DNA of 28,767 nucleotides from the IMG/VR virus record IMGVR_UViG_3300025086_000161, positions 1 to 28,767 of that record; one strand, 5' to 3'. A model generated the notes under the pieces. The model saw nothing but the letters and a program-made list of their open reading frames with translations. It had not been told where the DNA came from and made no database searches. A program made the position numbers and the translations under genes. Shown piece by piece: positions 1,533 through 26,724 of the stretch; positions within the stretch are counted from its first letter, which is position 1, and every line of letters begins with the position of its first letter. This DNA is from a virus.

Positions 1533-1766
1533 ATGTGGAAGTTATTTAAAAATAAAAACGATATAAATGAAAAAAATGTAGTTGGCTTTATATCTTTTGC
1601 AATAATGGTGTTATTTGCCATTATAGATTTAGCTACAGCCATTATATACATGGGATACGTAGGAGGTGGAGAACTAGAAATTAACGATACTATATATAAT
1701 TCATTTGTTATGGTAACATTAGGATGTTTTGGTATTAGTGCATTTGAAAAAGTAAAAAATAAATAA
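1533..1766 (+). CDS. Small two-helix membrane protein, possible second holin or antiholin (77 aa)
   Basis: A charged N-terminus (MWKLFKNKNDINEKN) is followed by a hydrophobic segment at residues ~16-43 (VVGFISFAIMVLFAIIDLATAI), a short acidic loop (G-G-G-E-L-E-I-N-D) and a second hydrophobic stretch at ~55-68, ending in FEKVKNK. Two membrane helices, a small size and a Lys-rich end are common in phage holins and their antagonists, and the next gene is a better-recognised holin. I chose the ATG at 1533, one base after the preceding stop, over the in-frame ATG at 1452, which would add 27 residues inside the HExxH gene and has no support. The membrane call is firm. The lysis role is inferred from context. 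Confidence 0.65.
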   Translation: MWKLFKNKNDINEKNVVGFISFAIMVLFAIIDLATAIIYMGYVGGGELEINDTIYNSFVMVTLGCFGISAFEKVKNK

Positions 1767-1767
1767 T

Positions 1768-2154
1768 ATGTTAGGAAAAATATTTTCAGGTGGTGCTGCA
1801 GATCTTGTAAAAGGCATAGGTGGAGTTGTAGATAACCTACATACTTCTGCTGAAGAAAAATTAGAAGCAGAAAGAAAAATAAAAGAATTAATTGCTAGCT
1901 ATCAAGTTGAAATGGAAAAAAACATTACAGCAAGATGGCAAGTAGATTTAAAATCAGATTCATGGCTAAGCAAAAATGTTAGGCCATTGGTATTAATATT
2001 TTTAATAGTATGCACCATGCTATTAATATTTATAGATGCAGGTGCATTAAGTTTTGAAGTTAAATCCAGTTGGGTTGATTTACTTCAATTAGTATTAATA
2101 ACAGTGATCGGTGCTTACTTTGGCGGTAGATCACTAGAAAAAGTAAAAAAATAA
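1768..2154 (+). CDS. Holin of the 3TM (GTA holin-like) type
   Basis: The layout matches the 3TM holin family: an amphipathic Gly-rich N-terminal segment (ADLVKGIGGVVDNL), the T-S-A-E-E-K-L-E-A-E-R-K-I charged helix, then S-W-L-S-K-N-V-R-P-L leading into a membrane helix (residues ~76-95). A second membrane helix follows (~107-120) with the closing G-A-Y-F-G-G-R-S-L-E-K signature. Holins accumulate in the inner membrane and open holes at a set time, releasing or activating the endolysin. At 128 residues it is the expected length. It follows the other small membrane protein by one base, forming a probable lysis pair. No obvious endolysin such as a lysozyme or amidase is in this window. The HExxH protein upstream is the only enzyme-like neighbour. 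Confidence 0.82.
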   Translation: MLGKIFSGGAADLVKGIGGVVDNLHTSAEEKLEAERKIKELIASYQVEMEKNITARWQVDLKSDSWLSKNVRPLVLIFLIVCTMLLIFIDAGALSFEVKSSWVDLLQLVLITVIGAYFGGRSLEKVKK

Positions 2155-2157
2155 ATT

Positions 2158-2520
2158 ATGGGAATAAATTCAACAGGCACAGCTTATAACTTCGGTCAGT
2201 TAGGTAGTGCACATATGCACAACGATAATGGTGAAGATCTAACTCCGCCAGACGGTATGGTTATTGTTGCTATCACTATGCTTGGAGCTATAGCGTTTGA
2301 TAAACTAACAGTAGATACATCCAACTCTGTCGTATACAGTGGAACTGAAAGCAGCAACGTTTATTTTGGTATCGCTAACGGTAATACGGGTGGTAACAGC
2401 GAAGCTGTTGATGCCTCTGTAGAGTTTCCAGCTGGTATGACTATATACGGAAGATGGACTGTAGTTAGTTTAAATGCTGCGGATACTGATGGTGGTATAA
2501 TCGCTTACTTTGGATACTAA
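2158..2520 (+). CDS. Small beta-rich protein, possible minor virion protein (120 aa)
   Basis: Not recognised with confidence. The sequence alternates Val/Ile/Thr strands with Gly/Asn/Asp turns (DGMVIVAITMLGAIAF, then S-N-S-V-V-Y-S-G, then V-E-F-P-A-G-M-T-I-Y-G-R-W) and ends I-I-A-Y-F-G-Y. This is typical of compact beta-sandwich decoration or head-fibre-type phage proteins. The MVIVAITMLGAIAF stretch is hydrophobic but interrupted by flanking Asp/Lys, and I read it as a buried strand, not a membrane helix. The stop overlaps the next ATG (TAATG at 2518-2522), so the two genes are probably translated together. The virion role is an inference. Confidence 0.65.
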   Translation: MGINSTGTAYNFGQLGSAHMHNDNGEDLTPPDGMVIVAITMLGAIAFDKLTVDTSNSVVYSGTESSNVYFGIANGNTGGNSEAVDASVEFPAGMTIYGRWTVVSLNAADTDGGIIAYFGY

Positions 2521-2873
2521 TGGCATTAGGTAACGCAAATTCATCAGCTCAATCTAGAGGAAAAAACAAACCTGTTATAGTAAAAAGACGTAAAGAGGTG
2601 GTACTTGCTAAAGGTTACACAAAAATGAGTGCTTCACCAGTGCAAGCTAAGGCAGCGTGTGGTTATAGTCTTCCACTTAAACAAACGTTATATCATAATG
2701 GTAGTAGTGCTAACCCAGTTGTTGGTGATATTGTTTATTCAAGACAAAGAGCTAATAGTAAATATGGTTTAAAAAATGGATATTACAAGGTTCAACCAGT
2801 CGGAAGTTTACGCACGTATAGTATACAAATAACAGGTAATGACGGTATTGTAGCAGCTGTAACAGCTTGTTAA
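2520..2873 (+). CDS. Basic-headed small protein, possible virion component (117 aa)
   Basis: The N-terminal third is Ser/Asn/Lys-rich and strongly basic (SSAQSRGKNKPVIVKRRKEV). The rest is beta-rich, with V-G-D-I-V-Y-S near residues 69-75 and an N-G-Y-Y-K-V element near 87-92, and the last residue is Cys. Two other Cys-flanked segments (KAACGYS and VTAC) raise the possibility of a disulfide or metal site, though this is unproven. The V-G-D-I-V-Y turn is common in small phage structural proteins. It is coupled by TAATG to the preceding beta-rich gene, so a paired structural role is plausible. I cannot name the family. Confidence 0.62.
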   Translation: MALGNANSSAQSRGKNKPVIVKRRKEVVLAKGYTKMSASPVQAKAACGYSLPLKQTLYHNGSSANPVVGDIVYSRQRANSKYGLKNGYYKVQPVGSLRTYSIQITGNDGIVAAVTAC

Positions 2874-2910
2874 TAAAAAACAAATTAAAATTAACTTAAA
2901 TTAAATAAAA

Positions 2911-3213
2911 ATGGCAAAAACAAAAACAAAAAAGGAAAAAATAGTAGATTTAAAACCTAAAGCAGAAAAAATAACCGATGAGCAATTAAATAATGTTCAG
3001 AACGTTATTAATGAAATTAATAGGTGTCAAATTGAAATTGGTACTATGGAAACAAAAAAACATAATCTAACACACCATATATTAACTTTACAAGAAAAAA
3101 TTGGTGAAATGCAAAAAGAATTTCAAAAAGATTATGGAACAGCAGATATCAATATTAAAGATGGTACTATAAATTATCCAAAAGAAAATGGCGAAGCTGA
3201 TAAGAAAGATTAG
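2911..3213 (+). CDS. Small coiled-coil protein (100 aa), unknown function
   Basis: The first 20 residues are Lys-rich (MAKTKTKKEKIVDLKPKAEK). Residues ~22-72 form a helical, heptad-like stretch (NVQNVINEINRCQIEIGTME, then ILTLQEKIGEMQKEF) and are followed by a short polar tail (DYGTADINIKDGTINYP). This reads as a dimeric or trimeric coiled coil. It could be a chaperone-like or scaffolding helper for the nearby head genes, but nothing in the sequence proves it. A 37-base A/T leader precedes the ATG, so this gene may start a new translational group. Its last 26 bases also encode the start of the next gene in another frame. Confidence 0.7.
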   Translation: MAKTKTKKEKIVDLKPKAEKITDEQLNNVQNVINEINRCQIEIGTMETKKHNLTHHILTLQEKIGEMQKEFQKDYGTADINIKDGTINYPKENGEADKKD

Positions 3214-3409
3214 TATAGGTAAAGACTATAAAAACGACGCTATGCATTACGCTGTTGGTCAAGAAGTTTATGGGGGTCATACTATTTGTGATATAATAGA
3301 AGAAGACGAGAAGTACTCTATTTATATTAAAAAGAAGAAAGATGTTTTACCGTGGAAAGACTTTAACAAAAACATGGCTGTTTCTGTAGAATATAACCTA
3401 GAGTACTAA
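3188..3409 (+). CDS. Small beta-rich protein (73 aa), unknown function
   Basis: The frame begins inside the end of the coiled-coil gene (26-base overlap) and ends in a TAATG that starts the next gene. Residues 1-14 are basic (MAKLIRKISIGKDYK). The middle contains A-V-G-Q-E-V-Y-G-G-H-T-I-C-D-I-I and then K-Y-S-I-Y-I-K-K-K-K, giving a small strand-turn-strand barrel reminiscent of SH3-like folds. I prefer the ATG at 3188 because the IRKISIG opening looks like an integral first strand. The in-frame Met at 3242 would remove it. No catalytic motif is visible. Confidence 0.62.
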   Translation: MAKLIRKISIGKDYKNDAMHYAVGQEVYGGHTICDIIEEDEKYSIYIKKKKDVLPWKDFNKNMAVSVEYNLEY

Positions 3410-3990
3410 TGAAAAGCGTTCACAACTTTGTTGTAACGCCAAAAGGAGATAGATACAACAATACTAAAAAGATTGGAGATTCAGAGTTAATACTTAACAC
3501 TGAAATCTTCAATCATCAATATGTTAATAGAGAAGCTATTGTTATATCAACTCCTATTGTTGGTGATACAGATGTTAAACCTGGAGATACAGTTATAGTG
3601 CATCATAATGTTTTTCGTAGATGGCATGACGTTAAAGGTGTAGAAAAAAATAGTAAAAGCTATTTTAATGAATCTACATACTTTATAAATAAAGATCAAA
3701 TATTCTTATACAAAAGAAAAAATAGCTGGGTAGCTCCAAAAGGTTATTGTTTTATAAAACCTTTAAAAGCCGTAGATAAGTTTAATGTTGAAACTGAAAA
3801 ACATCTACAAGGTATTGTTAAGTATTCAGACGGTACAGTGGAGGTTAACGATCTAGTTGGTTTTAGGCCAAATAGTAAATATGAATTTATAGTTGACAAC
3901 GAAAGACTATATAGAGTTTTATCTAATTTTATTACAATTAAATATGAATATCAAGGAAACGAAGAAGAATATAATCCAAGCTGGGCATAA
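3409..3990 (+). CDS. Beta-barrel protein with possible GroES-like halves (193 aa)
   Basis: Residues ~40-65 contain A-I-V-I-S-T-P followed by D-V-K-P-G-D-T-V-I-V-H-H-N-V-F-R, the 'x-P-G-D-x-V-x-[VF]' hallmark of Cpn10-type and related barrels. A second, weaker unit near residues 130-175 (L-Q-G-I-V-K-Y-S-D-G, V-N-D-L-V-G-F, then L-Y-R-V-L-S-N-F-I-T-I-K-Y) ends like the GroES closing strands. I therefore suspect two GroES-like barrels or one elaborated barrel. That would be notable because a separate GroES-like gene lies at the left edge. The protein is Lys/Tyr/Asn-rich, has no signal peptide and ends NPSWA. Its last 47 bases overlap the next gene in another frame. Function unproven; a chaperone or assembly role before the packaging genes is an inference. 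Confidence 0.6.
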   Translation: MKSVHNFVVTPKGDRYNNTKKIGDSELILNTEIFNHQYVNREAIVISTPIVGDTDVKPGDTVIVHHNVFRRWHDVKGVEKNSKSYFNESTYFINKDQIFLYKRKNSWVAPKGYCFIKPLKAVDKFNVETEKHLQGIVKYSDGTVEVNDLVGFRPNSKYEFIVDNERLYRVLSNFITIKYEYQGNEEEYNPSWA

Positions 3991-13200: not shown

Positions 13201-14805
13201 ATGGGATTACTAGACGGACAAACACATCAAGAATATTACCAAGGTAATGATTTTGGAAACTATCAATTTGTATCATTAAAAGATATAATAAATCAATTTA
13301 TGATTGTATACGTTGGTGATCAAAAAATAATAAAAAAATGTAGTCAAATAGATGTAGGTTTTCACGCTCAACGAGCTTTAGCTGAATTATCTTTTGATAC
13401 ATTTAAATCTGTAAAAGCACAACAAATAGAAGTAGCACCAACATTGATTATGCCATTGCCGCATGATTATGTAAATTATACTAAGTTATCAAGCGTTGAT
13501 AATTCTGGTATTAAACATCCTTTATACCCAACAAAACATACTAGTAATCCATTTGAAATAAGACAAAACTCCGGTGGAAATCGCTCTTACCAGTTTTTAT
13601 CTGGTAATGAAGCTATTGTTAACAATGATTTTAGTAATGTTGGCAATGATCAAGGGGGTTTTGGAGGTAGCGAGGCTGAAAATTGGAATAGAATGTCAGA
13701 CAAATTATTTGGTTCTAACTTTGGAAGTGGTGTTGGTATTTTAGATGGAAAAGTAATGTGGTCTTACTCTACTCACAATGGGTTTGGAGGAAATAATTGG
13801 GGTAAAACTGGTGTTTTATACCAACAGCTAGATACTACGGGGTTAAACGTTGTTGATGTTTCGGCAGATGGTGTAACTAGTGATATAACTTATGCTAATA
13901 CATCTGCAAATACTAACACTGGTACAGCGACTGGTACTATTAGATTTGGTTTAACAACACAAAACCCTGCTTTAATTACTAATTTAAATAATCACCCTAC
14001 TTACACTTATCCTGCAAATCACGCATACAATCCAGGTGAAACTTATGAGCAGTCACCATTTTTTACATCTGATTTTTTTGATATAGGTTATTTAGAGTGG
14101 ACTGGAAATGACACTAGTACTAAAACAATTGAAAATTTAAATATTGCAGATTACGATACTATATACATTGTTGCGTTATCTTTTGTTGAAGCTACAACTG
14201 GTTTAGAAAATAATTTTGTTTTAAAACCATCTTCACTTACAGCTTCTACAGTAGGTACTATAACTGGTACGGGTAATATAAATAGTTTAGATAACTTGAG
14301 TATAACTAATTCTTATGCTAGTACATCTTTATCAAGAGCAAGGAATTCAAATAAATCATCTACTTGGAATAATTACAAGTCATTAACTCCATCTGAAAAT
14401 AATAATGATGATTATGAAGATAATGTATATTGGCCTAATGAAGGAGAAAGATATGGCCTAGAGCCTTCACATGCACAGGTTAACGGGTCTTTTTATGTAG
14501 ACGAAATACTAGGAAACATACATTTTTCATCTAATATTTCAGGAAAAACTGTAATCTTAGATTATATAAGCGATAGTCTTGGTACAGATGAAGAAATGAA
14601 AGTACATAAATTTGCAGAAGAAGCTATGTATAGATACATATTACATGCTATTGCAGCTGGACAAATGATGACACAACAAATAGTTCCTAGACTTAAAAAA
14701 GAAAAGTTTGCAGCAATTAGGCAAGCAAAAATAAGATTATCAAATTTAAAGCTAGAAGAATTAACTCAAATACTTAGAGGTAAATCTAAGCAAATAAAAC
14801 ACTAG
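13201..14805 (+). CDS. Second putative adaptor/ring protein with an inserted beta domain (534 aa)
   Basis: Residues 1-~120 are ring-like (FVSLKDIINQFMIVYVGDQK, then HAQRALAELSFDTFKSVKA and I-M-P-L-P-H-D-Y-V-N-Y). From about residue 418 comes V-N-G-S-F-Y-V-D-E-I-L-G-N-I-H-F-S-S-N and then a helical C-terminus (E-E-A-M-Y-R-Y-I-L-H-A-I, Q-A-K-I-R-L-S-N-L-K-L-E-E-L), as in adaptors that contact the portal. Residues ~125-412 are unlike either end: Gly/Asn/Thr-rich, beta-stranded, with D-G-K-V-M-W-S-Y and I-G-Y-L-E-W-T-G-N-D-T-S-T-K-T-I-E-N-L, resembling a jelly-roll carbohydrate-binding module. I infer a ring protein carrying a surface domain. The exact ring type is not certain. Confidence 0.65.
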   Translation: MGLLDGQTHQEYYQGNDFGNYQFVSLKDIINQFMIVYVGDQKIIKKCSQIDVGFHAQRALAELSFDTFKSVKAQQIEVAPTLIMPLPHDYVNYTKLSSVDNSGIKHPLYPTKHTSNPFEIRQNSGGNRSYQFLSGNEAIVNNDFSNVGNDQGGFGGSEAENWNRMSDKLFGSNFGSGVGILDGKVMWSYSTHNGFGGNNWGKTGVLYQQLDTTGLNVVDVSADGVTSDITYANTSANTNTGTATGTIRFGLTTQNPALITNLNNHPTYTYPANHAYNPGETYEQSPFFTSDFFDIGYLEWTGNDTSTKTIENLNIADYDTIYIVALSFVEATTGLENNFVLKPSSLTASTVGTITGTGNINSLDNLSITNSYASTSLSRARNSNKSSTWNNYKSLTPSENNNDDYEDNVYWPNEGERYGLEPSHAQVNGSFYVDEILGNIHFSSNISGKTVILDYISDSLGTDEEMKVHKFAEEAMYRYILHAIAAGQMMTQQIVPRLKKEKFAAIRQAKIRLSNLKLEELTQILRGKSKQIKH

Positions 14806-14808
14806 TAT

Positions 14809-17800
14809 ATGCCAGAGATTAAGAATACTTTTGTTAGAGGTAGAATGAACAAAGACCTCGACGAAAGAATTATTCCAAAAGGAGAATATAGAGATGCAAT
14901 GAATATACAGGTTGGAACTTCTGAAGGTTCTGACATTGGTACCGTACAAAATATATTAGGTAATCTATCTGTCGAAAACATTGTTCCCGATAAGTGTAAA
15001 TGTATTGGTACTGTTGCTGATGAAAAAAATAATAAAATATATTGGTTTGTTAAAAGAGAATATTCACCTGATCACATAAACTTTGAGGCTATAATAGAAT
15101 ATTCATCTGAACTTGGACCTGTCCCGATTCTGGTTGACACCAAAATAAATACTGCGGACGCGGTATTAAAATTCCCTGAAAAAATTATTACTGGTATTAA
15201 TATTATAGATAATTTATTATTCTGGACTGATGGTGTAAATGAACCTAGAAAAATAAATATAGATCAATGCAAAAAAGGTAGTGTAGATTTACAAACACAT
15301 ACTCAATTATCTAATGACTTTGGTGGTTTTGATGGTTTAGCCATTAACACCGTTGGTTTATTTCAAGATGATAATGGAGATGAGTTAGGAAATATGGTTA
15401 CTACTCTTGATGATTCACAAGTAACATCAGGAAGGTATATGTATTTTGAAAAAGATCAATTTGATAAATTATTTGATCACGAGGTTGTTCATAATACTCC
15501 AGGAAGTACGTCGGAATTAACTGAAGAAGGAAATATACATCCTATTCGTCAATATAGAGATGGTGAGTTTTTAGGTTTAATCTATGTTAAGGTTTGGAAT
15601 ACTGGTGGTGGAAACGGTATGCATGCTAGAAGAACCGCTTATGATCAACCAGCAAATTGGTTTGCGAGAAACAGACAATTTAAAGTTGGTGATATAGTTT
15701 TTGGAGATAATATAACAAGAGATATTAAAGAGGAAAATATTACTGTTATAAGAAAATCCCCAAGCACAAAGTTAAATATAAAAATAAATACCACCCAAAA
15801 TAAAAATAAAGAACCTTTATTTGAAAAAATATTCCCTAGATTTTCATATAGATATAAATATAATGACAATGAGTACTCAACATTCGCTCCTTTTACAGAC
15901 GTAGTATTTAATCCTGAGCATAAAGAAAACTTTAGTTTAGATAGTTCGTACGATGTAAAAGAACCGTACAATACTTCAATGCTTAACGTTATTGATTCAA
16001 TTGAATTAACAGATTTTATTAATCCTGATATTGATGAAAACGTAAAGCAAATAGATATTTTATATAAAAAAGAAGACTCTCCAGTTATATATTCTATAGT
16101 TAGTTTAAAGAGAGAAGATAAAGAGTGGTATGAGTTTGGTTCTGGACAACAAAATGATGTTGGTTATGTAAATACACCTTTACCTGGTGGTTTAACTGGT
16201 AGTGGTAAACCAGGTGTTTTTGGTGGTTTATTTAGAGGTAAATATATTGTTAACTCTGAAAACATTAGTAACGCTCTTCCTGAAAATCAATTATTAAGAC
16301 CGTGGGATGCTGTTCCTAGAAAAGCATTAGCACAGGAAATAACAGGTAATAGAATTGTATATGGTAATTACGTTCAAGGTTATAAGTTAGATACTGTGAT
16401 ACCATCTTTACTAGCGGATTACAAACCTAGAACAACGTATAGTCTACCTAATTCTAATTTTGATTCCAGTGCTTTACCATCTATAAAATCTCAAAGAAAT
16501 TATCAACTAGGAGTTGTTTTTGGAGATAAATATGGAAGAGAAACACCGGTGTTTACATCTAGTAAAAGTGCTGTATCAATACCATGGAGAAGTAATCGTG
16601 GTACTTTAACAGCGACTCAAGCGAATCAAATTGAAGTAAAGCTAGAGAAAGATCCACCAAACTTTGCTGAATATATAAAATATTTTATAAAAGAAACCTC
16701 TGGAGAATATTATAATTTAATAATGGATAAGGTTTATGTTCCTGCAGATATAACTCCAATAGAAACAAAGCGTCATCTTTGGCTTTCTTTCCCTTCCTCA
16801 GAAAGAAATAAAATAGATGAGGATGATTATTTAATACTAAAAAAGAAAATTGGATCTGGAGAAACACAGATGCAAGACAAAAATAAATTTAAAATTCTTG
16901 ATATAAAAAATGAAGCGCCTGATTTTGTAAAATATGAATACGCTTTATTAGCAGAGCTAGACCAAACGTCTGACGGTGGTACTACATATTTAAGCAATTT
17001 GTTTAACACTCCTAAAGGTCGGTTGAAAGAAGATAATACTTTGATAATAATAAATAAATCTGAATTTCATGGTCAATCAGCTGTAAGATGGGGATTTAAT
17101 GACATTGGAGATAAAGGTGTTAAAAATTATCTTATTGATAATTTATACTTATCTTGGTTTAGAGCTACTGGTACTGACGCTGGTTTAAGCTCTAATAAAT
17201 ACAAAATAATAGATATATTAACAAATGCAAATGATTATCTTTTTACCTTAGACAAACCTATTAGTGAAAGAGATGCAAAAATTAGTAACCAAGGATCTGG
17301 ATCAACAAATGCTTGGCCAGATTGTGGTATAAGATTTGAAAAAAGAAAAGAAAGAAACTTAGAGTTGTTTTCTGGTAAGTTTTTTGTTAAAGTTATAAGT
17401 GAACCAGTTGTTTATGGCGATATATTAGATGATACTTCTTTGTTAAATAAATTTGTTTGGACTTCAAGAAGAACGACTTTTTGGTCAGCAGACGCTATAA
17501 ATAATGTCGATAAACATGCAGATGATGGTATTATAAACGCTTATAATTATGCAGCGCCTGTAGGTTCTGGTGATTCTCCTGAAGAACTTCATGGTGAAAA
17601 AGTAACCGCCGCTCAAGCTAATTGGCAAAGTATAATAGATAACATGGGAGATGGATCTCCTGATGTATTTTTTATCGATAACATGTTTATGATAGCGGGG
17701 CAGATATCCGATAATAATTATGCTAAAAACTCAGGGCAAATTTGGACGGGTAATCTAGAAACACATCAAAAACAAGCGGTTTGGGTTGGTAGAAGTTTAG

Positions 17801-20800
17801 ATAATTTATTTAATGTAGACGCGGGTAGCGCTGTTGGTGAAAATGATATTGCAAATATAGATTATTACGTTGGTAATCCCGATTGGGAGCAAAGCACTGG
17901 TTTTGGTTGGAAGTTTTTTAATTGGACTCGTCCTTGGAAACAAGCTGCTGACGCTACTCTTAGAACTCAAGATATTAATGGTTTAGAAGGAATAATAGAG
18001 ACACAAGATATGCACGTTGGTAACTATGATTTAGATTCACTTGATAATCTAGGTTACGGATCTGGTATAAGAAGATGGAAAAGTGAACTTATGCCAGGAG
18101 CGGGTATGGCTGGCTCTGAAAACAATTTAGATTATACTTATGGTAAAGAAACTGGTAAGTTTTATATGCACTTATCCTTTTTAGCGCCAGGTGAAGATTT
18201 AGTTACTGATATGAGTGGAATGGGTGATTCTATATATGGTCCTAATTCAGTTGCTAAAGGTTTACAAGGTGTTTGGGGAGGTGGATTAATAGGTAGTAAT
18301 GATGGTGATGTGTTTAGCCATCATCATAGAGTTATACCTATGGAGGGTAAATATCCTATAGATGAAAATGACGATGGTAGTGAACCACCAGGACCAGGAG
18401 TACCAAATTCTTTTGGTTATGACGAAAAATATAGAGCGAGACATGAAAACCAATGGAATCCATGTTGGCCAAGTGATCCGGGAGGTAAAATAAGAGAGTT
18501 TATAGACAATATAAGGCCAGGTAGTAAATTTAAGTTTGGACTTGATACTAGTAACACTATATATACTATAAAAAAAGTATCTATAAAAAAATTATATAAC
18601 CATACGCCTTGGAAGTATAGGGCTATGTGGAATGGTACTAATGGTAATATGGATACCATAGCAAACCCAAGTGTTTGGAATAAAGGAAATGTTTGGGCTG
18701 ATACTTTAGATGCTAACGGTACTAATGGAAACGCTACAAAGTTATATAGTTTTAAAGATTCTATTGTTCGTTTTGGTAAGAAAAACAATAGAAGATTGTG
18801 TTATATTATAGAGTTAGATAAAAACCCAAGAGACAACAATACTTTTAATCCAATGGACGGTACGAGCATGGATCTTGACACTGGTACTGCTATTCAATTT
18901 TTAGCCCAAGCTAGTAGTTTTATAGAATTAGACGCTGAAAAACCTATTATCTGGGAAACAGAAGCAAAAAAATCTGCTGATATAGAGATATATCACGAGG
19001 CTAGCGATCCAATACCAACAAAAATAACGGTTAAAACAAACGAAATGTTTGCACCTGTAGGATGTTATGTAGAAAATCTAGGAAAAGAAAATATGGGTGA
19101 TCCTTTTTATCAGGTTAATCAATCATCTAGAAGCGTGTTAAAAAGATGGATAGACGATACTACATTTGAAATAATACCTGGTTTTAAATATGGAGTGTTT
19201 GGGGTTACACCTACAGAAGAAGTTGATTATTCTAATTATAAATTTAAGTTTATAAGAAAAGATGGTAGTTACACTGTTGGAAGGCTAGCTGCTCAACCTT
19301 CAGATCCTGGTAATACTCTTGGGCTACAAGATTCTGGAGGTAGTTATACTGGTGGTACAAGAACTATATTCACTATAAGCTCGGATGTTGGTAGCGATTT
19401 AGAAACAGGTTTAAGCTGGTATAATTGTTTTTCTTTTGGAAATGGTTTAGAATCTAATAGAATACAAGATGGTTTCAATGAAATGCAAATTACAAATGGA
19501 CCTGTTGTATCTTCAACTATAGATACAGATTATACGGAAGAAAAAAGAACTAGTGGTTTAATTTACTCTGGTTTATATAATTCTAATAACGGTATAAATA
19601 ATTTAAATCAATTTATTACAGCTGAAAAAATAACTAAAGATTTAAATCCTACATATGGTAGTATTCAAAAACTATATCAAAGGAGAGTTGGTTTGGTTGC
19701 TTTTTGTGAAGATAGAATAGTAGATATAGTAGCTGGTAAAGACACTCTATTTAACGCTGATGGTAATCCACAGTTAGTTGCATCAAATAAAGTTTTAGGT
19801 ACCGCAACTCCTTTTGTTGGTGACTTTGGTATATCGCAAAATCCAGAGTCATTTGCTTCAGAATCATATAGAGCTTACTTTACAGATAAACAAAGAGGAG
19901 CTGTTTTAAGGCTTTCTATGGATGGCTTAACACCAATATCAGATATAGGTATGACTGATTGGTTTAGAGACAATCTAGTAACGCCTAACGAGCTTATAGG
20001 TACATACGATGAGTATAAGAAAGAATACAACTTAACATTAAAATCAGATTTTAGCGAAAACTTATTAAGAAACTCAAATATAAGTGAGGGCGAAGATTTA
20101 ATAAACTTAACTACAGCCCCTGTAAATTTAATAGATAATGCTAATCCAAATAACTACACACCTTTAGTTACTCCAGATTTAAACACAGATGACTCAGTTG
20201 ATAATATGATGAGTTACAACCAGCGTCACTTTGCACAGCAAACAGAAGTTATAAATCATACTGCTATTCCCGAAGGGTTCTTTCAACCAGCTGTTGATGG
20301 TTATGCTGCTATGCCTACAATACCAAACAATTATCTTAATACTGCTGGTAGTGCAAGTGGTTATTTTACAAAAACACCAAAAACTTTAATTGAGTTGACG
20401 TTTCCATCTCAACGAACTGGAGTAGATCATACTATTTTATCAAACGTATGGCGCGATAGTAGTGGTAATCCAGATCCTTATGGATATGAAGGTGGTCCTT
20501 TTAGAGATATAAATCCTGGTACACTAACCGATCAAGGAGGATGGATTTTATCAAGATCAGTAGGTGAATTTTGGAATACTACCGCGAGTACGCCTCCACA
20601 ATCAACTAATCAAATGTGGAGTTTAACTAATGGACCTCATAGTACTCTTAGTTTAGCTCCTTATGGATCAGCTGGATACACCACAACAGGTGTTGGCTCA
20701 ACTTATAAACGTTATTTATCACAGTATGCAAGCGGAAGTGATGAGTATGGTTTTGCGGGTTTAGGTGTTGGTAGCGACGGTAATAACTCCGACTCGCTAG

Positions 20801-23800
20801 CAACTCAAGTAACTAATGAGGTCGCGCAGTTTTACGAAATGTTTATTGGTGTAAAACATAATTTGAGTAGGGGTAGATTAATTATTCCTGAAAAACACGA
20901 AACAGGATCTTTTCCTACAGATCAAGTGCCCGCAGATATTTTAGCTTGGGGTCCTGGAAACTTATATTGGGAAGCCACTAAAAATACACCGAATGATCTT
21001 TATTCAAATTCTACTTCACAAACAAACGTAAATAACATTCAAGATTGGAGCATGGCTACTAATTTAAGTATATTTGCTGGAGAAGAAATAAAAGTTACGC
21101 TAGTCTGCAATCTACCACAGGGACTTAGTTGTAATGTTTATCCAGAGGTTTCTATTAATTCATCTTCCGTGCGACCGTATAAGTTTGCTGCTTTTGGTAA
21201 CCCTTCTTCTGCTATAGCTGATGGTTATTTTGGAAGCGGTTGGCAAAACAGCAATGGTAACACCATGGGTTTTAGTAACAACGCTGGTTTTACTGAATAT
21301 GCTAACAACCCAGAAGGTCATGAGTGGGCTAGTCAAAGTAATAACACAAATGGATCTTCTAACCACTATGGTAGTAGCGCTTTTCCTGGTACTTTTTCTA
21401 ATCATGGGGCTGTTTCAGGACATCGTGGTTTTCAAGCTAGTTCATTTGTAAAGCTTCCTCGAACAAGAACAACTTCTGCTGGTCCATATTATGGATGGAG
21501 ATTAGTAAATGCTGGTGGGCCTGGTAATGGAAGCACTGAAACAACTCGAGCTACATTTACTTTTTACTGGAAATTTTTAGCTGATGGCGTTAATACAGGA
21601 GATATAACTGATGGTCTTAATACGGATGGTGGAGGAGATTTAACAGGACAAGCTAGTTTACTATTTGAGAACTTAAAATTAAAAGTTCAAAATAAATCTT
21701 GGTCTAATGCTGATGAAGGTGGTTTTAATCTTGATTATTTTAAAGTGGAAAAAGTGTATAGTTTAACTTCGCATTTTCAACCTGATGTTCCTGCTGGAGA
21801 TGAACAACTAGCAATACCACAAAGTGATGTACCGGCTTGGGCTGAAGTTAAAAACACGTTAAAATATGATAATTGGACTTACACGGGCGTTGATGTTAAG
21901 TATAGTTCTGATAAATTTCTATGTAACCAGAGCGTTACAGCGCACGGTCCAGACAATCCAGCTGGACCTACTAATAGTGCTACTAGTGTTTCAAACAATA
22001 TAAATGTACCGTTTTCTGGACAAACATATACTTGGTATACGCCAGTAGCGCAAGATACTAGTATTGATGGAACAAGCGGTTTAACAGTCGGGTCTACCGC
22101 ATACGGTGATTATGATATAACAAACCACGGGGGTACTGGTAGTGGCATGGTTACTGCTTACACTAATCCTTCTGGAGTTACTATTGAAAATGAGCACGTG
22201 GTTATTGGCCACGGTAGCACTGGAGATGTTTATATTAACACTACTAGCGCTGGTACTGTGAGTGGGTTTGCTGGTGGTGTTTGGGTTGATGCTAATTTTA
22301 GTTCGAATTCAAATATGGACCCTATGCAAACAACTGATAAGTGGTTAATGATAGATGTTATAGCTAAACCTATTTCAGGTGCACCTGCAGTTCCGAGTGC
22401 AATCAGCACTGGTATTTTAGTTAGAGGTTTAATTGACCCAGCTGTTACGAGTACAGATACTAACACTGGTACTTATTGGGGAGCAGACTTTTTTGCTAGT
22501 AATCTTCCTTATGGTACTTTTGGCACGGCAAATCAGTATAGCACTGGAAATCCAACTGTTGGTACTGATAGGGGGCTAATACTACTTAGGCCAGCTGATT
22601 TTCCATTATATAACAATATGCACGGAGGTGACTTACTAGGAATACAAAGTAATGGTTATCTCGGTGCTGTACCATCTGGATATCAACTTTTTAGAGCTGT
22701 TGTTAAAGTAAACGCGAATAGTTATAATGGATATAATTCTAGCAATAGATTCTTAATGCAATTTTTTAACTTTGAAGGTCTTGTAAAATTAATTAACGTT
22801 AGAGATATTTCTCAAGTACAAACAGGTGGTGTACCTACTAATTGGGATTGGGATGATGTGAATGGTAACATGCAAACAAATCAATGGCAAACCGCAACGC
22901 CAACTACTAGTTGGAACCACCCTGAGTATGGAGGTGGAGACGGTGCTCTAGTAGTTAATAGCATACATAGAAAAAGAATGTATGTAGAAAACGGTAAATT
23001 TAAGTTTAGAGATACTACGGCTCCAGGACAAGTTTTACATCAAAGTTTTACTAATGATCACTCTGCGCCTTTTGACTTATTACCAGCGCAAGATAATTAT
23101 GAGTTTAATGTTAAAATAGAAAACCACAATGGTGATATTGTTTATTTTCAATTAAGAAGTAAATTATTTATGCCTGATAGTCAGGGTACTCAAAATGCAG
23201 AAGGGTATAATTTAAAAATGTATTTTGATGAAGATGGAGAGTATAAGGTTAGGTTTAATCTTACAGAAGGTGCTCCATTAATAACATCAATTGAGCGTAA
23301 TAACAATTTTTACACTCCAAATACAGATCCGGTAATAGAACAACATCCAGACGTAGATTATCAAAATAGTTTACGTATACATAATAAAAATTATCATCCT
23401 ACTTTCACAGTTGTACCTTTAACATGTGACATTTCTCAAATAAGGTTAGTTGATACTTCAAATATTATAATTGGTGGTTCTGTAGATTTTTGGGAATTCA
23501 CAGGGTTTGACCTAACAGATGATGATTATATATATTTTGAAAATGAAGAAATAGTTTTAAACTCTGCGCCTGATTATACTGATATAAGGCAAGTTATAAA
23601 TAAGCACGTTGCATTAGATAGTAAGTATAGAATTAGATTTAACGCTGATATAGCAGATGGAAAAATAAGAGCTTATTATTTTAATAGTAATGGAGATGGA
23701 TTTGTAACACCTATAATAGATAATACAAATAGTGGTTATTATGATAGTATTCACACAATTGGAGAAGAGATATCTAGTAGTGGTAATGTTTCTAATCCAC

Positions 23801-24588
23801 TTAAAAATACTTTTGTTATTGAGATTATAGATGGTGAGGGTAGTGTCACCGGAACTTTAGATAATTTTTCAATGCAAAGAGTTATAGAGTTTTCACCTCA
23901 AACACTTTCTTTTAGTGAAAAAACAAAAGGTTGGGTAAGTTTTAAATCTTTTACACCTGAAAATGGAGTTAGTTTAGCAAAACAGTATTATACCATGAAT
24001 GGTGGTCATTTATTTCAACACCATGCTAATGAAACTAGAAATCAATTTTATAATGAAGCTCACGAAGAAATAATAGAATCATCTGTTACTATGATTTTGA
24101 ACCAAGAACCTTCTTTAATAAAAACATTTAACACTTTAAATTACGAGGGCACGCAGTCACAAATATATAGGTATGATAATAATCATGTAGAGGGTACTAT
24201 TGAAACATATAATACTACGGTATCAGCTGAGGCAGCTCTTAGGTTTCCATACCCTACATTTGACCCTAATCCATATGCAAAACTAGGTTGGTATGTTAAT
24301 TCTATAGAAACAGACAAGCAGTCTGGTAGTGTTAAAGAGTTTGTAGAGAAAGAAGGCAAATGGTTTAATTATATAAAAGGAGACAATACTATAATTGACA
24401 CGGGGCAGTTTAGCTTCCAAGGATTAGGAGTAGCCATAAATGTTACGGCGAGTAGTGGAAGCTCTACTACTAGCGGTGGTGGCGGTGGAAATGGTGGTGG
24501 AAATGGTAACGGAAATGGTGGTGGAAATGGAGGTGGAAATGGCGGTGGAAATGGCGGTGGAAATGGCGGTGGAAATGGAGGTTATTAA
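14809..24588 (+). CDS. Giant tail stabilization-type protein with a ~1290-residue insertion (3259 aa)
   Basis: Residues ~12-30 read RMNKDLDERIIPKGEYRDA, followed by N-I-Q-V-G-T-S-E-G-S-D-I-G-T-V-Q-N-I-L-G-N, the opening of the tail stabilization proteins I associate with crAss-like and related short-tailed phages. Next comes the propeller-like run C-I-G-T-V-A-D-E-K-N-N-K-I-Y-W-F. The conserved N-part seems to run to DEYKKEYNLTL (residue ~1744). The conserved C-part resumes at TLSFSEKTKGW (~3032-3042) with GWYVNSIETD at 3160-3169 and KEGKWFNYIKG at ~3181-3191. Between them (bases ~20041-23904) lies Gly/Ser/Asn-rich, jelly-roll-looking sequence, for example the module starting at W2895. The end is a Gly/Asn repeat. 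It probably forms the tail hub and contacts the host surface. Nothing suggests a frameshift or a split gene. Confidence 0.8.
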   Translation: MPEIKNTFVRGRMNKDLDERIIPKGEYRDAMNIQVGTSEGSDIGTVQNILGNLSVENIVPDKCKCIGTVADEKNNKIYWFVKREYSPDHINFEAIIEYSSELGPVPILVDTKINTADAVLKFPEKIITGINIIDNLLFWTDGVNEPRKINIDQCKKGSVDLQTHTQLSNDFGGFDGLAINTVGLFQDDNGDELGNMVTTLDDSQVTSGRYMYFEKDQFDKLFDHEVVHNTPGSTSELTEEGNIHPIRQYRDGEFLGLIYVKVWNTGGGNGMHARRTAYDQPANWFARNRQFKVGDIVFGDNITRDIKEENITVIRKSPSTKLNIKINTTQNKNKEPLFEKIFPRFSYRYKYNDNEYSTFAPFTDVVFNPEHKENFSLDSSYDVKEPYNTSMLNVIDSIELTDFINPDIDENVKQIDILYKKEDSPVIYSIVSLKREDKEWYEFGSGQQNDVGYVNTPLPGGLTGSGKPGVFGGLFRGKYIVNSENISNALPENQLLRPWDAVPRKALAQEITGNRIVYGNYVQGYKLDTVIPSLLADYKPRTTYSLPNSNFDSSALPSIKSQRNYQLGVVFGDKYGRETPVFTSSKSAVSIPWRSNRGTLTATQANQIEVKLEKDPPNFAEYIKYFIKETSGEYYNLIMDKVYVPADITPIETKRHLWLSFPSSERNKIDEDDYLILKKKIGSGETQMQDKNKFKILDIKNEAPDFVKYEYALLAELDQTSDGGTTYLSNLFNTPKGRLKEDNTLIIINKSEFHGQSAVRWGFNDIGDKGVKNYLIDNLYLSWFRATGTDAGLSSNKYKIIDILTNANDYLFTLDKPISERDAKISNQGSGSTNAWPDCGIRFEKRKERNLELFSGKFFVKVISEPVVYGDILDDTSLLNKFVWTSRRTTFWSADAINNVDKHADDGIINAYNYAAPVGSGDSPEELHGEKVTAAQANWQSIIDNMGDGSPDVFFIDNMFMIAGQISDNNYAKNSGQIWTGNLETHQKQAVWVGRSLDNLFNVDAGSAVGENDIANIDYYVGNPDWEQSTGFGWKFFNWTRPWKQAADATLRTQDINGLEGIIETQDMHVGNYDLDSLDNLGYGSGIRRWKSELMPGAGMAGSENNLDYTYGKETGKFYMHLSFLAPGEDLVTDMSGMGDSIYGPNSVAKGLQGVWGGGLIGSNDGDVFSHHHRVIPMEGKYPIDENDDGSEPPGPGVPNSFGYDEKYRARHENQWNPCWPSDPGGKIREFIDNIRPGSKFKFGLDTSNTIYTIKKVSIKKLYNHTPWKYRAMWNGTNGNMDTIANPSVWNKGNVWADTLDANGTNGNATKLYSFKDSIVRFGKKNNRRLCYIIELDKNPRDNNTFNPMDGTSMDLDTGTAIQFLAQASSFIELDAEKPIIWETEAKKSADIEIYHEASDPIPTKITVKTNEMFAPVGCYVENLGKENMGDPFYQVNQSSRSVLKRWIDDTTFEIIPGFKYGVFGVTPTEEVDYSNYKFKFIRKDGSYTVGRLAAQPSDPGNTLGLQDSGGSYTGGTRTIFTISSDVGSDLETGLSWYNCFSFGNGLESNRIQDGFNEMQITNGPVVSSTIDTDYTEEKRTSGLIYSGLYNSNNGINNLNQFITAEKITKDLNPTYGSIQKLYQRRVGLVAFCEDRIVDIVAGKDTLFNADGNPQLVASNKVLGTATPFVGDFGISQNPESFASESYRAYFTDKQRGAVLRLSMDGLTPISDIGMTDWFRDNLVTPNELIGTYDEYKKEYNLTLKSDFSENLLRNSNISEGEDLINLTTAPVNLIDNANPNNYTPLVTPDLNTDDSVDNMMSYNQRHFAQQTEVINHTAIPEGFFQPAVDGYAAMPTIPNNYLNTAGSASGYFTKTPKTLIELTFPSQRTGVDHTILSNVWRDSSGNPDPYGYEGGPFRDINPGTLTDQGGWILSRSVGEFWNTTASTPPQSTNQMWSLTNGPHSTLSLAPYGSAGYTTTGVGSTYKRYLSQYASGSDEYGFAGLGVGSDGNNSDSLATQVTNEVAQFYEMFIGVKHNLSRGRLIIPEKHETGSFPTDQVPADILAWGPGNLYWEATKNTPNDLYSNSTSQTNVNNIQDWSMATNLSIFAGEEIKVTLVCNLPQGLSCNVYPEVSINSSSVRPYKFAAFGNPSSAIADGYFGSGWQNSNGNTMGFSNNAGFTEYANNPEGHEWASQSNNTNGSSNHYGSSAFPGTFSNHGAVSGHRGFQASSFVKLPRTRTTSAGPYYGWRLVNAGGPGNGSTETTRATFTFYWKFLADGVNTGDITDGLNTDGGGDLTGQASLLFENLKLKVQNKSWSNADEGGFNLDYFKVEKVYSLTSHFQPDVPAGDEQLAIPQSDVPAWAEVKNTLKYDNWTYTGVDVKYSSDKFLCNQSVTAHGPDNPAGPTNSATSVSNNINVPFSGQTYTWYTPVAQDTSIDGTSGLTVGSTAYGDYDITNHGGTGSGMVTAYTNPSGVTIENEHVVIGHGSTGDVYINTTSAGTVSGFAGGVWVDANFSSNSNMDPMQTTDKWLMIDVIAKPISGAPAVPSAISTGILVRGLIDPAVTSTDTNTGTYWGADFFASNLPYGTFGTANQYSTGNPTVGTDRGLILLRPADFPLYNNMHGGDLLGIQSNGYLGAVPSGYQLFRAVVKVNANSYNGYNSSNRFLMQFFNFEGLVKLINVRDISQVQTGGVPTNWDWDDVNGNMQTNQWQTATPTTSWNHPEYGGGDGALVVNSIHRKRMYVENGKFKFRDTTAPGQVLHQSFTNDHSAPFDLLPAQDNYEFNVKIENHNGDIVYFQLRSKLFMPDSQGTQNAEGYNLKMYFDEDGEYKVRFNLTEGAPLITSIERNNNFYTPNTDPVIEQHPDVDYQNSLRIHNKNYHPTFTVVPLTCDISQIRLVDTSNIIIGGSVDFWEFTGFDLTDDDYIYFENEEIVLNSAPDYTDIRQVINKHVALDSKYRIRFNADIADGKIRAYYFNSNGDGFVTPIIDNTNSGYYDSIHTIGEEISSSGNVSNPLKNTFVIEIIDGEGSVTGTLDNFSMQRVIEFSPQTLSFSEKTKGWVSFKSFTPENGVSLAKQYYTMNGGHLFQHHANETRNQFYNEAHEEIIESSVTMILNQEPSLIKTFNTLNYEGTQSQIYRYDNNHVEGTIETYNTTVSAEAALRFPYPTFDPNPYAKLGWYVNSIETDKQSGSVKEFVEKEGKWFNYIKGDNTIIDTGQFSFQGLGVAINVTASSGSSTTSGGGGGNGGGNGNGNGGGNGGGNGGGNGGGNGGGNGGY
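24475..24582 (+). repeat. 12-base tandem repeat encoding a Gly/Asn tail
   Basis: The unit GGAAATGGCGGT occurs three times perfectly at 24535-24570, a fourth copy has one change (24571-24582), and degenerate copies lie upstream. Residues 3223-3258 are almost only Gly and Asn, and the protein ends in Tyr. The unit is in frame, so slippage would lengthen or shorten the tail by four residues without disrupting the gene. Confidence 0.88.
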
Positions 24589-24601: not shown

Positions 24602-25897
24602 ATGGCACATAATCAATATCACAATACAACTTCAGAGAGCGATAATTTAGGTGTTCAAACCAAACAAGTTGAGCTTAGGATAAACTCTTTTGAAATGGAT
24701 TTATCAGACTTAGGAGCTGGAGCTGCAAATAGAAGTTTTACTATAAGAGCAGATAAAGGAGCTGGTTTTAATATCAACGTTATTCAAAAATCTTCATCAT
24801 CTAGTGTTTTAGATAAGTTTTATAATTGGAAAACAAATAGTTTTACGAGTGATTTTACAACTTCACATACTTTAGAAGTTAAAATGATTGGTAAAATATA
24901 TAACAATAGTATTTCTTTTCCAGCTGGTAATACGGGTGATTATTTTATAACTATTTTTTCTTTAGAAAAATCAAATACTATTTTTTCTCCATCAACAGGT
25001 GCTGCTGGTAAAAAAATACTTACTAAAAAATTAACACAAGTAACTACTTCTAATTTAATACTTTCTCCAGCTACAGCTAATAGTGATCATTATAAAACTT
25101 TTCCTACAACAACAATTACATCTTCTATAACAAATACAGAAGTAAGAAATATTGAATTTAATTGGGAAATTGAAAATGCTGATAGCGATACTTATGGTTT
25201 TGGATTAAGAGATCTTACAGAGTCATTTACCGGGGAGGCGGGTAAAGTACCGATTAATGAATGGTATTTTGAGACTACAGCGGTAACAGTAGGGGCTTTT
25301 GCAGGAGTATCAAAAATTCGACTTAATGATGTTACAAATTTAGCTCCAGGTATGGTTTTAGTAGGTGGAAGTGGCGTGAGTGGTACGCCTGAAATACTAT
25401 CTATTTCTAGTTCTGAAAAACAGATTTCATTAGGTAGCGTTCAAACGATAGCGGATGGTGTAACGTTGACTTTTAAAGCATATGGAACAAGTACTATTTC
25501 GAATATTGAAGGTTTAGACACTTCAGTTGCTGTGCAACCCGGTCGTTTAACACCTGTCCCATTAACAAAAACCGTTAGAACCAATTCTAGTGGTACCACG
25601 GTTGATTTAAATGGTACTTATGGTATAGCTGGGGGTAATCACGTTACTGTAACAGGTTTAAATGTTAACAACCTGACAACAAACACGGTTGCTAGTGTAA
25701 GTGCTAGTTCTAGTGCTGGTAGTATAGTTATGACTCTAGACCAAACAGGCGTTACAACAGGTACAACGTTAAAATTTACCGGTAGCTCTAAAAAAATAGA
25801 GATAAATGGAGTAATTAAAGTAACAAAACAACCAAAGGTTAATACTACTATATATTTAAACTTAGATAATATATTAGCAGTAGGCGCTGCATCTTAA
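24602..25897 (+). CDS. Beta-rich virion protein, probably tail-associated (431 aa)
   Basis: The sequence is Ser/Thr/Val/Asn-rich, Trp/Cys-poor and built of short strands. Residues ~28-60 read V-E-L-R-I-N-S-F and R-S-F-T-I-R-A-D-K-G-A-G-F-N-I-N-V. Residues ~235-290 hold a typical phage fibre/baseplate-type module (LNDVTNLAPGMVLVGGSGVS, I-L-S-I-S-S-S-E-K-Q-I-S-L-G). Residues ~345-405 look like a second copy of the same design (VTVTGLNVNNLTTNTVASVS, then S-I-V-M-T-L-D-Q-T-G-V-T-T-G-T-T-L-K-F). I read it as a structural protein attached to the giant tail protein, whose stop is 13 bases upstream of this ATG. Precise role unknown. No enzyme motif was seen. Confidence 0.7.
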   Translation: MAHNQYHNTTSESDNLGVQTKQVELRINSFEMDLSDLGAGAANRSFTIRADKGAGFNINVIQKSSSSSVLDKFYNWKTNSFTSDFTTSHTLEVKMIGKIYNNSISFPAGNTGDYFITIFSLEKSNTIFSPSTGAAGKKILTKKLTQVTTSNLILSPATANSDHYKTFPTTTITSSITNTEVRNIEFNWEIENADSDTYGFGLRDLTESFTGEAGKVPINEWYFETTAVTVGAFAGVSKIRLNDVTNLAPGMVLVGGSGVSGTPEILSISSSEKQISLGSVQTIADGVTLTFKAYGTSTISNIEGLDTSVAVQPGRLTPVPLTKTVRTNSSGTTVDLNGTYGIAGGNHVTVTGLNVNNLTTNTVASVSASSSAGSIVMTLDQTGVTTGTTLKFTGSSKKIEINGVIKVTKQPKVNTTIYLNLDNILAVGAAS

Positions 25898-25906
25898 AAT
25901 AAAAAT

Positions 25907-26242
25907 ATGGCAATAACAATAGAATTTAGTAATATATTAAACACCTCTTTACAAGTTGGAGATACAGCGTGGCACACCGCGGTGAGTCAAGTTGGGAGTC
26001 AAAATTATGCTTCTAATCCTCAACAAATAGGTGTAATAACCAGTATGACATCTAATTCAATTACAATAGATAGTGAAATGTCAGTACCTGCTTCTGCTGA
26101 TTTTATAATGTTTTCTAAAAATCAAACGGTAAACAATACTAGTTTATTAGGTTATTATGCTAAAGTAGAATTAAAAAACAATTCGTTAGAACATGCGGAG
26201 TTATTTGCTGTAAGCTCAGAGGTAGCTCCTAGTAGTAAATAA
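25907..26242 (+). CDS. Small beta-rich virion protein (111 aa)
   Basis: The protein has strands and turns throughout: S-L-Q-V-G-D-T-A-W-H at residues ~14-23, Q-I-G-V-I-T-S-M-T-S-N-S-I-T-I at ~41-55, and then D-F-I-M-F-S-K-N-Q-T-V-N-N and G-Y-Y-A-K-V-E-L-K-N-N-S, ending A-E-L-F-A-V-S-S-E-V. This architecture (small sandwich, 'QVGD' turn, 'FIMFSK' strand) is one I associate with short structural proteins in podovirus tail modules. It lies 9 bases after the preceding beta-rich gene and is followed by a hairpin region. Role inferred from context. Confidence 0.68.
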   Translation: MAITIEFSNILNTSLQVGDTAWHTAVSQVGSQNYASNPQQIGVITSMTSNSITIDSEMSVPASADFIMFSKNQTVNNTSLLGYYAKVELKNNSLEHAELFAVSSEVAPSSK

Positions 26243-26286: not shown

Positions 26287-26724
26287 ATGAATGATAGTAT
26301 AAAATTTAGATCTTTCAAAGAAGGTGATTATGAAATTTGTTGTAAATGGTGGGAATGGTGGTGGAGAAACGGGCAGGGTCCAGTGCCTAGAGCGTTTTTA
26401 CCAAAAGATGAAAGATGTTTTGTTATAGAAAAAAATAATATAGTTGTTGCTTGTTATTTTTTATTTATAATGGAACCACAAACAGTTGGTTGGGCTACTT
26501 ATTTAGTGTCTAATCCAAAGTATAAAGAAAAAGATAGAAAAAATCTAATAAAAACACTAATACAAAACGTAGAAAAAGAAGCTGAAAAATACGGTATTAT
26601 GCAGTTGTTTACAGTGTGTGGTGATAAACACATGTCAAAGTTACACGATGATTTAAATTGGATTATGATACCAGTAGAGCACGAAGGTTTTAAGTATTTA
26701 AAAAATAATATTACAAAAAGATAA
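26287..26724 (+). CDS. GNAT-fold acetyltransferase-like protein (145 aa)
   Basis: The order of elements fits the GCN5-related N-acetyltransferase fold. A first strand/helix (I-K-F-R-S-F-K-E-G-D-Y-E-I-C-C-K-W-W) comes before C-F-V-I-E-K-N-N-I-V-V-A-C-Y-F-L-F and then G-W-A-T-Y-L-V-S-N-P-K-Y-K-E-K-D-R-K-N-L-I-K-T-L. G-I-M-Q-L-F-T-V-C-G and a final L-N-W-I strand follow. GNATs use acetyl-CoA to modify amines. The usual pyrophosphate loop R/Q-x-x-G-x-G/A is not evident: the site reads KYKEKDRKN, so activity is uncertain. The protein may be a structural descendant or a divergent enzyme. It sits among virion genes, with the next ATG 3 bases after its stop. The Trp cluster near residues 21-26 is unusual. 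Confidence 0.68.
   Translation: MNDSIKFRSFKEGDYEICCKWWEWWWRNGQGPVPRAFLPKDERCFVIEKNNIVVACYFLFIMEPQTVGWATYLVSNPKYKEKDRKNLIKTLIQNVEKEAEKYGIMQLFTVCGDKHMSKLHDDLNWIMIPVEHEGFKYLKNNITKR

Follow-up and report, generated by a model that had tools for sequence, protein, structure and literature searches.

The virus contig analysed here (IMG/VR record IMGVR_UViG_3300025086_000161), whose whole length of 28,767 nucleotides is called the window, devotes about a third of itself to one gene, and the question is what tail protein this gene encodes and what lies between two conserved parts of it. An earlier note, made from the letters alone, had read the product as a tail hub into which about 1290 residues of possible host-contact machinery were grafted. 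The signatures quoted there were all found on the + strand, within an open reading frame of 3259 amino acids; the features recognized in the gene and behind it are collected in Table 1.

Table 1. Features of the muzzle locus, in positions of the window
Feature	Position	Strand	Basis
Muzzle main chain, 3259 aa	14809..24588	+	ORF and signatures, PHROG/Pfam, blastp
N-terminal propeller part and IG/crass-type region, residues ~1-1529	14809..19395	+	PHROG 14478, blastp, gp44 analogy
Conserved propeller block ahead of the joint, residues ~1530-1749, EYNLTL strand at its end	19396..20055	+	alignment A1, hhalign
Insertion at the joint, residues ~1750-3029 (~1280 aa)	20056..23895	+	absent from short muzzles
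Insert tip, hypervariable, residues ~1841-2490	20329..22278	+	identity drop, dS
Insert stem, conserved, residues ~2491-3029	22279..23895	+	identity, structure model
Muzzle C-terminal domain past the joint (TLSFSEKTKGW...KEGKWFNYIKG)	23896..24444	+	crAss_MUZ_C
Low-complexity terminus of the main chain, rich in Gly/Asn/Ser, where the C-terminal break lies	24445..24585	+	sequence
431-aa gene separating the two pieces of the muzzle	24602..25897	+	kept in relatives
111-aa gene, detached C-terminal piece by homology with the last ~95 residues of intact muzzles	25907..26242	+	phrog_18548, hhalign

The suspicion that both ends of the protein belong to one family was borne out by PHROG, Pfam, blastp and hhalign comparisons. 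The protein matches PHROG 14478 (E 1.9e-128), stretches of which cover the first ~1529 residues together with blastp matches to the muzzles of phi38:1, Gundel and elemo phages; the domain names used for this region follow from the analogy with PhicrAss001 gp44, and the domain order was taken from PMC10172136. The part C-terminal to the insert matches phrog_38031 and phrog_18548, and the family crAss_MUZ_C (PF25729) was detected at residues 3076-3191 with 29.8 bits (cut-off 27). The latter family is present in 12/12 of the short relatives scanned; crAss_MUZ (PF25731) was recognized in four of the 12, and the window protein itself has no match to it. When a profile built from 65 short-jointed relatives was compared with gp44, the solved muzzle chain 7QOK, hhalign aligned the C-terminal half of the propeller only (probability 96, E 6e-9 and 1e-8), and the block ahead of the joint fell on gp44 residues ~1052-1198. 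On these homologies the product is a crassvirus-type muzzle (tail-tip nozzle) instead of a tail hub, and the phage belongs to a marine lineage akin to the crassviruses. Among the traits expected of a muzzle is also a hexameric seven-bladed propeller with a ring-joining domain at the tail end. The single polypeptide of gp44 is a feature of this type specimen and no part of a formal definition, and it is not shared by the window, where the C-terminal piece is encoded separately.

Terminase, portal and other head or structural families are encoded ahead of the muzzle. The gene directly before it (13201-14805, 534 aa, phrog_13977) is, by its position, likely that of the ring protein. Compared with phi38:1 gp096 (about 284 aa), this product is expanded internally by ~250 aa, and the alignment is confined to residues 1-108 and 418-533. 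Its counterparts in relatives measure ~270 to ~635 aa. The closest isolated phages come from Cellulophaga, Flavobacterium and Tenacibaculum hosts and are assigned to Pervagoviridae, Pachyviridae and Elemovirus; their records do not list them under Crassvirales. The window contig is 28.8 kb long. Searched at the nucleotide level, the whole muzzle gene had no match among phages, and sequence searches of the PDB with residues 1-1744, with the insert and with profile A2 gave no homologue. Matches of the Gly-rich end to unc-80 and other PDB entries were rejected as low-complexity noise.

Comparison with short muzzles confirmed that a large insertion stands exactly between the EYNLTL strand and the SFxExxKGW motif, and the limits first proposed for it (1745-3032) are off by a few residues only. 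In the blastp alignments residue 1079 of phi38:1 pairs with window residue 1749 and also with 3032, and the pairs Gundel 1153/1156 and Panino 80/82 fall on window 1747/3032; these three proteins have a few residues at most where the window has ~1749-3032. The insert starts with ENLLRNSNISEG and finishes with GTLDNFSMQRV and a linker. In gp44 the joint corresponds to ~1198/1199, between ...NNDVYFTYK and DHCLCYSELINQFTSF (hhalign, short-joint profile), which would place the insertion in a hairpin turn of the C-terminal half of the propeller. In the PhicrAss001 muzzle IG2 and the crass domain occupy residues 318-1021, and the length variation of muzzles was ascribed to this part (PMC10172136); the joint lies outside it, therefore the insertion site differs from the published length-variable regions.

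How general the insertion is was judged from homologues in IMG/VR, GTDB genomes and isolates, which made up 151 loci once duplicates had been removed. The spacing at the joint was 0-40 aa in 87 loci, 41-505 aa in 16 and 928-1431 aa in 24, and none of these 127 unbroken homologues had 506-927 aa; the gene was broken at the joint in 14 of the 151, including phi46:3 and ctfjg026, and 10 gave no answer. It could be argued that the segment belongs to the regular make-up of this muzzle family, as every close relative of the window (L008/L017, L009, L011) carries it. Against this stand the 87 of 127 unbroken homologues with practically nothing at the joint, the empty interval above them, and gp44, which has no extra sequence there; the survey, in which the region proved not to be a length-conserved part of the protein, refutes such a reading, to which we attach a vanishingly small probability. 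An assembly artefact was likewise ruled out, because contigs independent of one another have homologous inserts at this residue. Searches with the insert alone (tblastn against phages and a pattern scan) gave no match, and a scan with the insert stem returned only contigs already known.

Two further observations were made in the survey. In L155 (on the same contig as L041), L172 and L161 the muzzle is apparently broken at the joint and has a separate tail piece, and the second open reading frame consists of the C domain with more than 1000 extra residues; these are possibly three-gene muzzles. Additionally, the long contigs of Aquimarina longa (837 kb) and Aquimarina algiphila (169 kb) carry the muzzle homologues L124 and L129, which points to integration of these copies.

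The giant inserts are mostly confined to one branch of the family. In a tree of 29 rows all nine giants are found inside an 11-row clade (support 100/100), and a single clade of all nine was not rejected (AU p 0.11); in the tree of 127 rows 23 of the 24 are found inside a 26-row clade (SH-aLRT 86). Three members of this larger clade, L022, L023 and L174, lack the insert, thus it is dispensable in some phages. The larger tree needs five changes and leaves one outlying giant, L160. These data are best explained by one main gain followed by a few losses or exchanges, and by a second gain that was independent. The joint insert of L160 measures 928 aa and contains two CenC-like starts in tandem; standing outside the main clade, it was apparently gained independently. 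The insert might take the place of stand-alone fibre genes or add to them, as the earlier note proposed. The idea that short relatives have a compensating fibre gene beside the muzzle was not supported: no extra gene adjoins it in the partial contigs of L022 and L023, two short-jointed members of the giant clade.

The content of the insert was approached through its sequence and its modelled fold. No Pfam or PHROG family covers it. A start pattern like that of the window occurs in 24/24 giant inserts and an end pattern like its GTLDNFSMQRV in nearly all of them, patterns reminiscent of the opening and closing strands of CenC/CBM-type jelly rolls. The insert had been described as jelly-roll-like and rich in Gly, Asn and Ser; the first part of this description stood, and the compositional bias turned out to be modest (insert versus core: G 9.8 and 8.6%, N 9.5 and 8.1%, S 8.8 and 7.0%, T 9.1 and 6.5%). 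The structure predicted for residues 2495-3259 is of low overall quality (mean pLDDT 48.7); within it residues ~2722-3027 form two beta-sandwiches, mostly with pLDDT above 60 and up to 89 per ten-residue block. With this stem model, the high-ranking Foldseek matches in the PDB included the CBM region of Vip3, SGBP-B of Bacteroides thetaiotaomicron and a CBM22 tandem, and single domains of CBM4, CBM29 and a porphyran CBM reached target-normalised TM-scores of 0.46-0.59, values that refer to a partial model of medium confidence. The TM-scores of the multi-domain matches were low, so the fold match of the stem is supportive, not conclusive. In a viral structure library the stem model found phage tail and CenC/LamG-like proteins, also with low TM-score. 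According to this medium-confidence model the last two domains of the insert are probably CBM-like jelly rolls, and the whole insert is probably an array of such domains. We call it CBM-like and not a CBM member because no match to the curated Pfam CBM families was obtained in the window insert or in the other giants scanned.

CBM-like domains are usually found alongside carbohydrate-active enzymes, thus the insert might be, or might contain, a polysaccharide-degrading enzyme that clears the capsule, with the CBM-like domains as mere accessories. The Manatee Spring phage ctfjg026, in which a gene annotated as 'putative glycosidase' stands at the same joint, would fit such a role. No catalytic family was found in the insert or in its relatives, however, and the model of the tip (residues 1735-2560, based on 9 sequences, pLDDT 33) is unusable for this purpose; we regard the enzyme as rather unlikely.

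Compared with its nearest relative (L017, the full form of L008), the core of the window protein is mostly 84-100% identical, with a few lower blocks of 53-76%. Residues 1841-2480 show only 21-49% identity with many gaps, their flanks 69-100%, and in residues 2561-3030 identity is back to 74-85%; other proteins encoded nearby share 55-94% identity between the two phages. The synonymous divergence behaves similarly: dS is 0.32 in the stem, 0.31 over residues 1-720, 0.14 in the block that precedes the joint and 0.14-0.70 altogether outside the tip, and 1.39 in the tip, where the value is approximate because the alignment is uncertain. This raised dS suggests that tip alleles have been replaced and that point mutation alone was not at work. 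Furthermore, the tip is less alike than the core in every listed pair of giants. Such a divergence, together with the jump of dS, is typical of host-contact parts and favours the host-contact idea of the earlier note. The same middle could instead vary under little constraint in an insert that mainly enlarges or braces the tail tip: three phages of the giant clade do without it, muzzle length varies widely elsewhere too, and dN/dS of the tip is below one (0.53). A purely structural role leaves two things poorly accommodated, namely that the stem and both ends of the insert are conserved and the middle alone diverges, and that relaxed constraint on the protein alone does not explain the dS of the tip, which, with the reservation on its alignment, points to exchange. 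It is judged distinctly improbable.

The motifs TLSFSEKTKGW, GWYVNSIETD and KEGKWFNYIKG, thought before to mark the C-terminus, do not end the muzzle, since the true C-terminus is encoded by the separate 111-aa gene. This protein matches positions 160-237 of phrog_18548 (241 positions), the N-terminal part of which is matched by the main chain. The separate genes align with the ends of intact muzzles over 92 columns (hhalign probability 99.3, E 8e-21), and an iterated profile found the segment at the extreme C-terminus of phi38:1, Gundel, elemoC, phi46:3 gp112, Panino, L093 and L031. With gp44 itself the piece gave no alignment; it aligns with intact muzzles of the phi38:1 type only. As far as homology can tell, the muzzle is thus also split at its C-terminus, and the 111-aa gene is its missing last piece. 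If the small gene were merely a paralogue of the muzzle C-terminus, the long extra C-terminal sequence of some main chains might substitute for the piece; such extensions of ~650-1200 residues are seen in other giant muzzles, mostly with a short joint, and blastp found no homology between them and the joint inserts of the window family. The segment comes, however, from a separate gene in 92 of the 113 scored loci (in 24/24 giants) and is fused in 21, and no locus of the iterated profile search has a fused and a separate copy together, which leaves the paralogue a slim prospect. The 431-aa gene stands before or after the gene of the tail piece depending on the relative (after it in several), and has weak partial matches within the L076 muzzle.

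Several other genes of the window deserve mention. The product of 26727-27767 matches the S74 endosialidase chaperone at residues 277-318 below the threshold (18.8 bits, cut-off 22) and also a DNA-ejection family; its homologue in L017 (about 270 aa) lacks the S74-like end. A phage co-chaperonin of the GroES family (3409-3990, phrog_13932, E 8e-17) and a holin (1768-2154, phrog_3427, E 1e-27) were matched as well. The gene at 26287-26724, conserved at the same place in relatives, has a weak GNAT acetyltransferase match (E 0.0017, below the cut-off).

The explanation that we favour, and consider likely, is that a glycan-binding arm with a conserved stem and an exchangeable tip has been built into a turn of the propeller, and that the last segment of the muzzle is made separately and rejoins on assembly. 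The array of ~1280 residues, probably of CBM-like jelly rolls, would project outward from a tight turn of the tail-end propeller, its stem holding the fast-changing tip, and the tip would probably recognise glycans on the surface of the host, which is presumably a member of the Bacteroidota. There might be six such arms per virion near the gate, because the PhicrAss001 muzzle is a hexamer; arms lying so close to the gate could, on binding, help to trigger its opening. The main chain and the 111-aa piece may reunite physically during assembly. A broader view, on which our judgement is evenly divided, is that the muzzle propeller has two preferred cut points, where lineages carry either in-frame inserts and extensions or gene breaks that yield a muzzle of two or three polypeptides. 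The window would then combine a giant exchangeable arm with a detached last segment, so that one ring might act as gate, receptor-binding protein and multi-gene assembly.

Crassvirus-type phages are abundant, and how the muzzle senses the host is not established; with a probable specificity module on the very protein that bears the gate, a connection of binding with ejection can be put to the test. As the two cut points indicate, a tail-end beta-propeller tolerates grafts of a thousand residues and even gene breaks. Annotation pipelines will also overlook the end of a muzzle that is encoded by a small 'hypothetical' gene. In a limited search of open-licence papers no description was found of an insertion at this muzzle site or of a detached muzzle C-terminus.

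Among the closest known systems is the solved muzzle PhicrAss001 gp44 (PDB 7QOK, 7QOL, 8CKB; Bayfield et al. 2023, PMC10172136), which by profile comparison is homologous from ~1052 to ~1285/1333, both joint strands included, and whose gene, probably like that of the window, follows the gene of the ring (tail tubular) protein; unlike the window muzzle, it is a single gene product of 1371 aa with nothing added at the joint. The crass and Ig-like domains of muzzles are believed to dock them to the cell (review, PMC10136315), so that an adhesin added at the joint would vary a role already suspected. The tandem BACON repeats of crAssphage tail-region proteins are also beta-sandwiches with a proposed part in host contact (PMC6949934), but they belong to a different domain family and are encoded near tail genes, not described inside the muzzle. 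The CBM4, CBM22, CBM29 and Vip3 CBM-type jelly rolls and the Bacteroides SGBP-B share a fold with the stem as modelled, partially and with medium confidence, and differ from the insert in giving no sequence-family match. Phi38:1 gp097 (1324 aa; Cellulophaga phage) and the elemovirus and Gundelvirus muzzles, annotated as structural, have the same core in a similar gene order; unlike the window they have no insertion at the joint and keep the C-terminal piece fused. Extra sequence at this very joint was found in phi46:3 (Cellulophaga phage, Bacelvirus; gp111 and gp112) and in ctfjg026. These phages, unlike the window, have a gene break at the joint: the N-terminal part ends ~350-500 aa beyond it, the second gene begins at the motif (in ctfjg026 an additional gene lies between the two), and the C-terminal piece stays fused.
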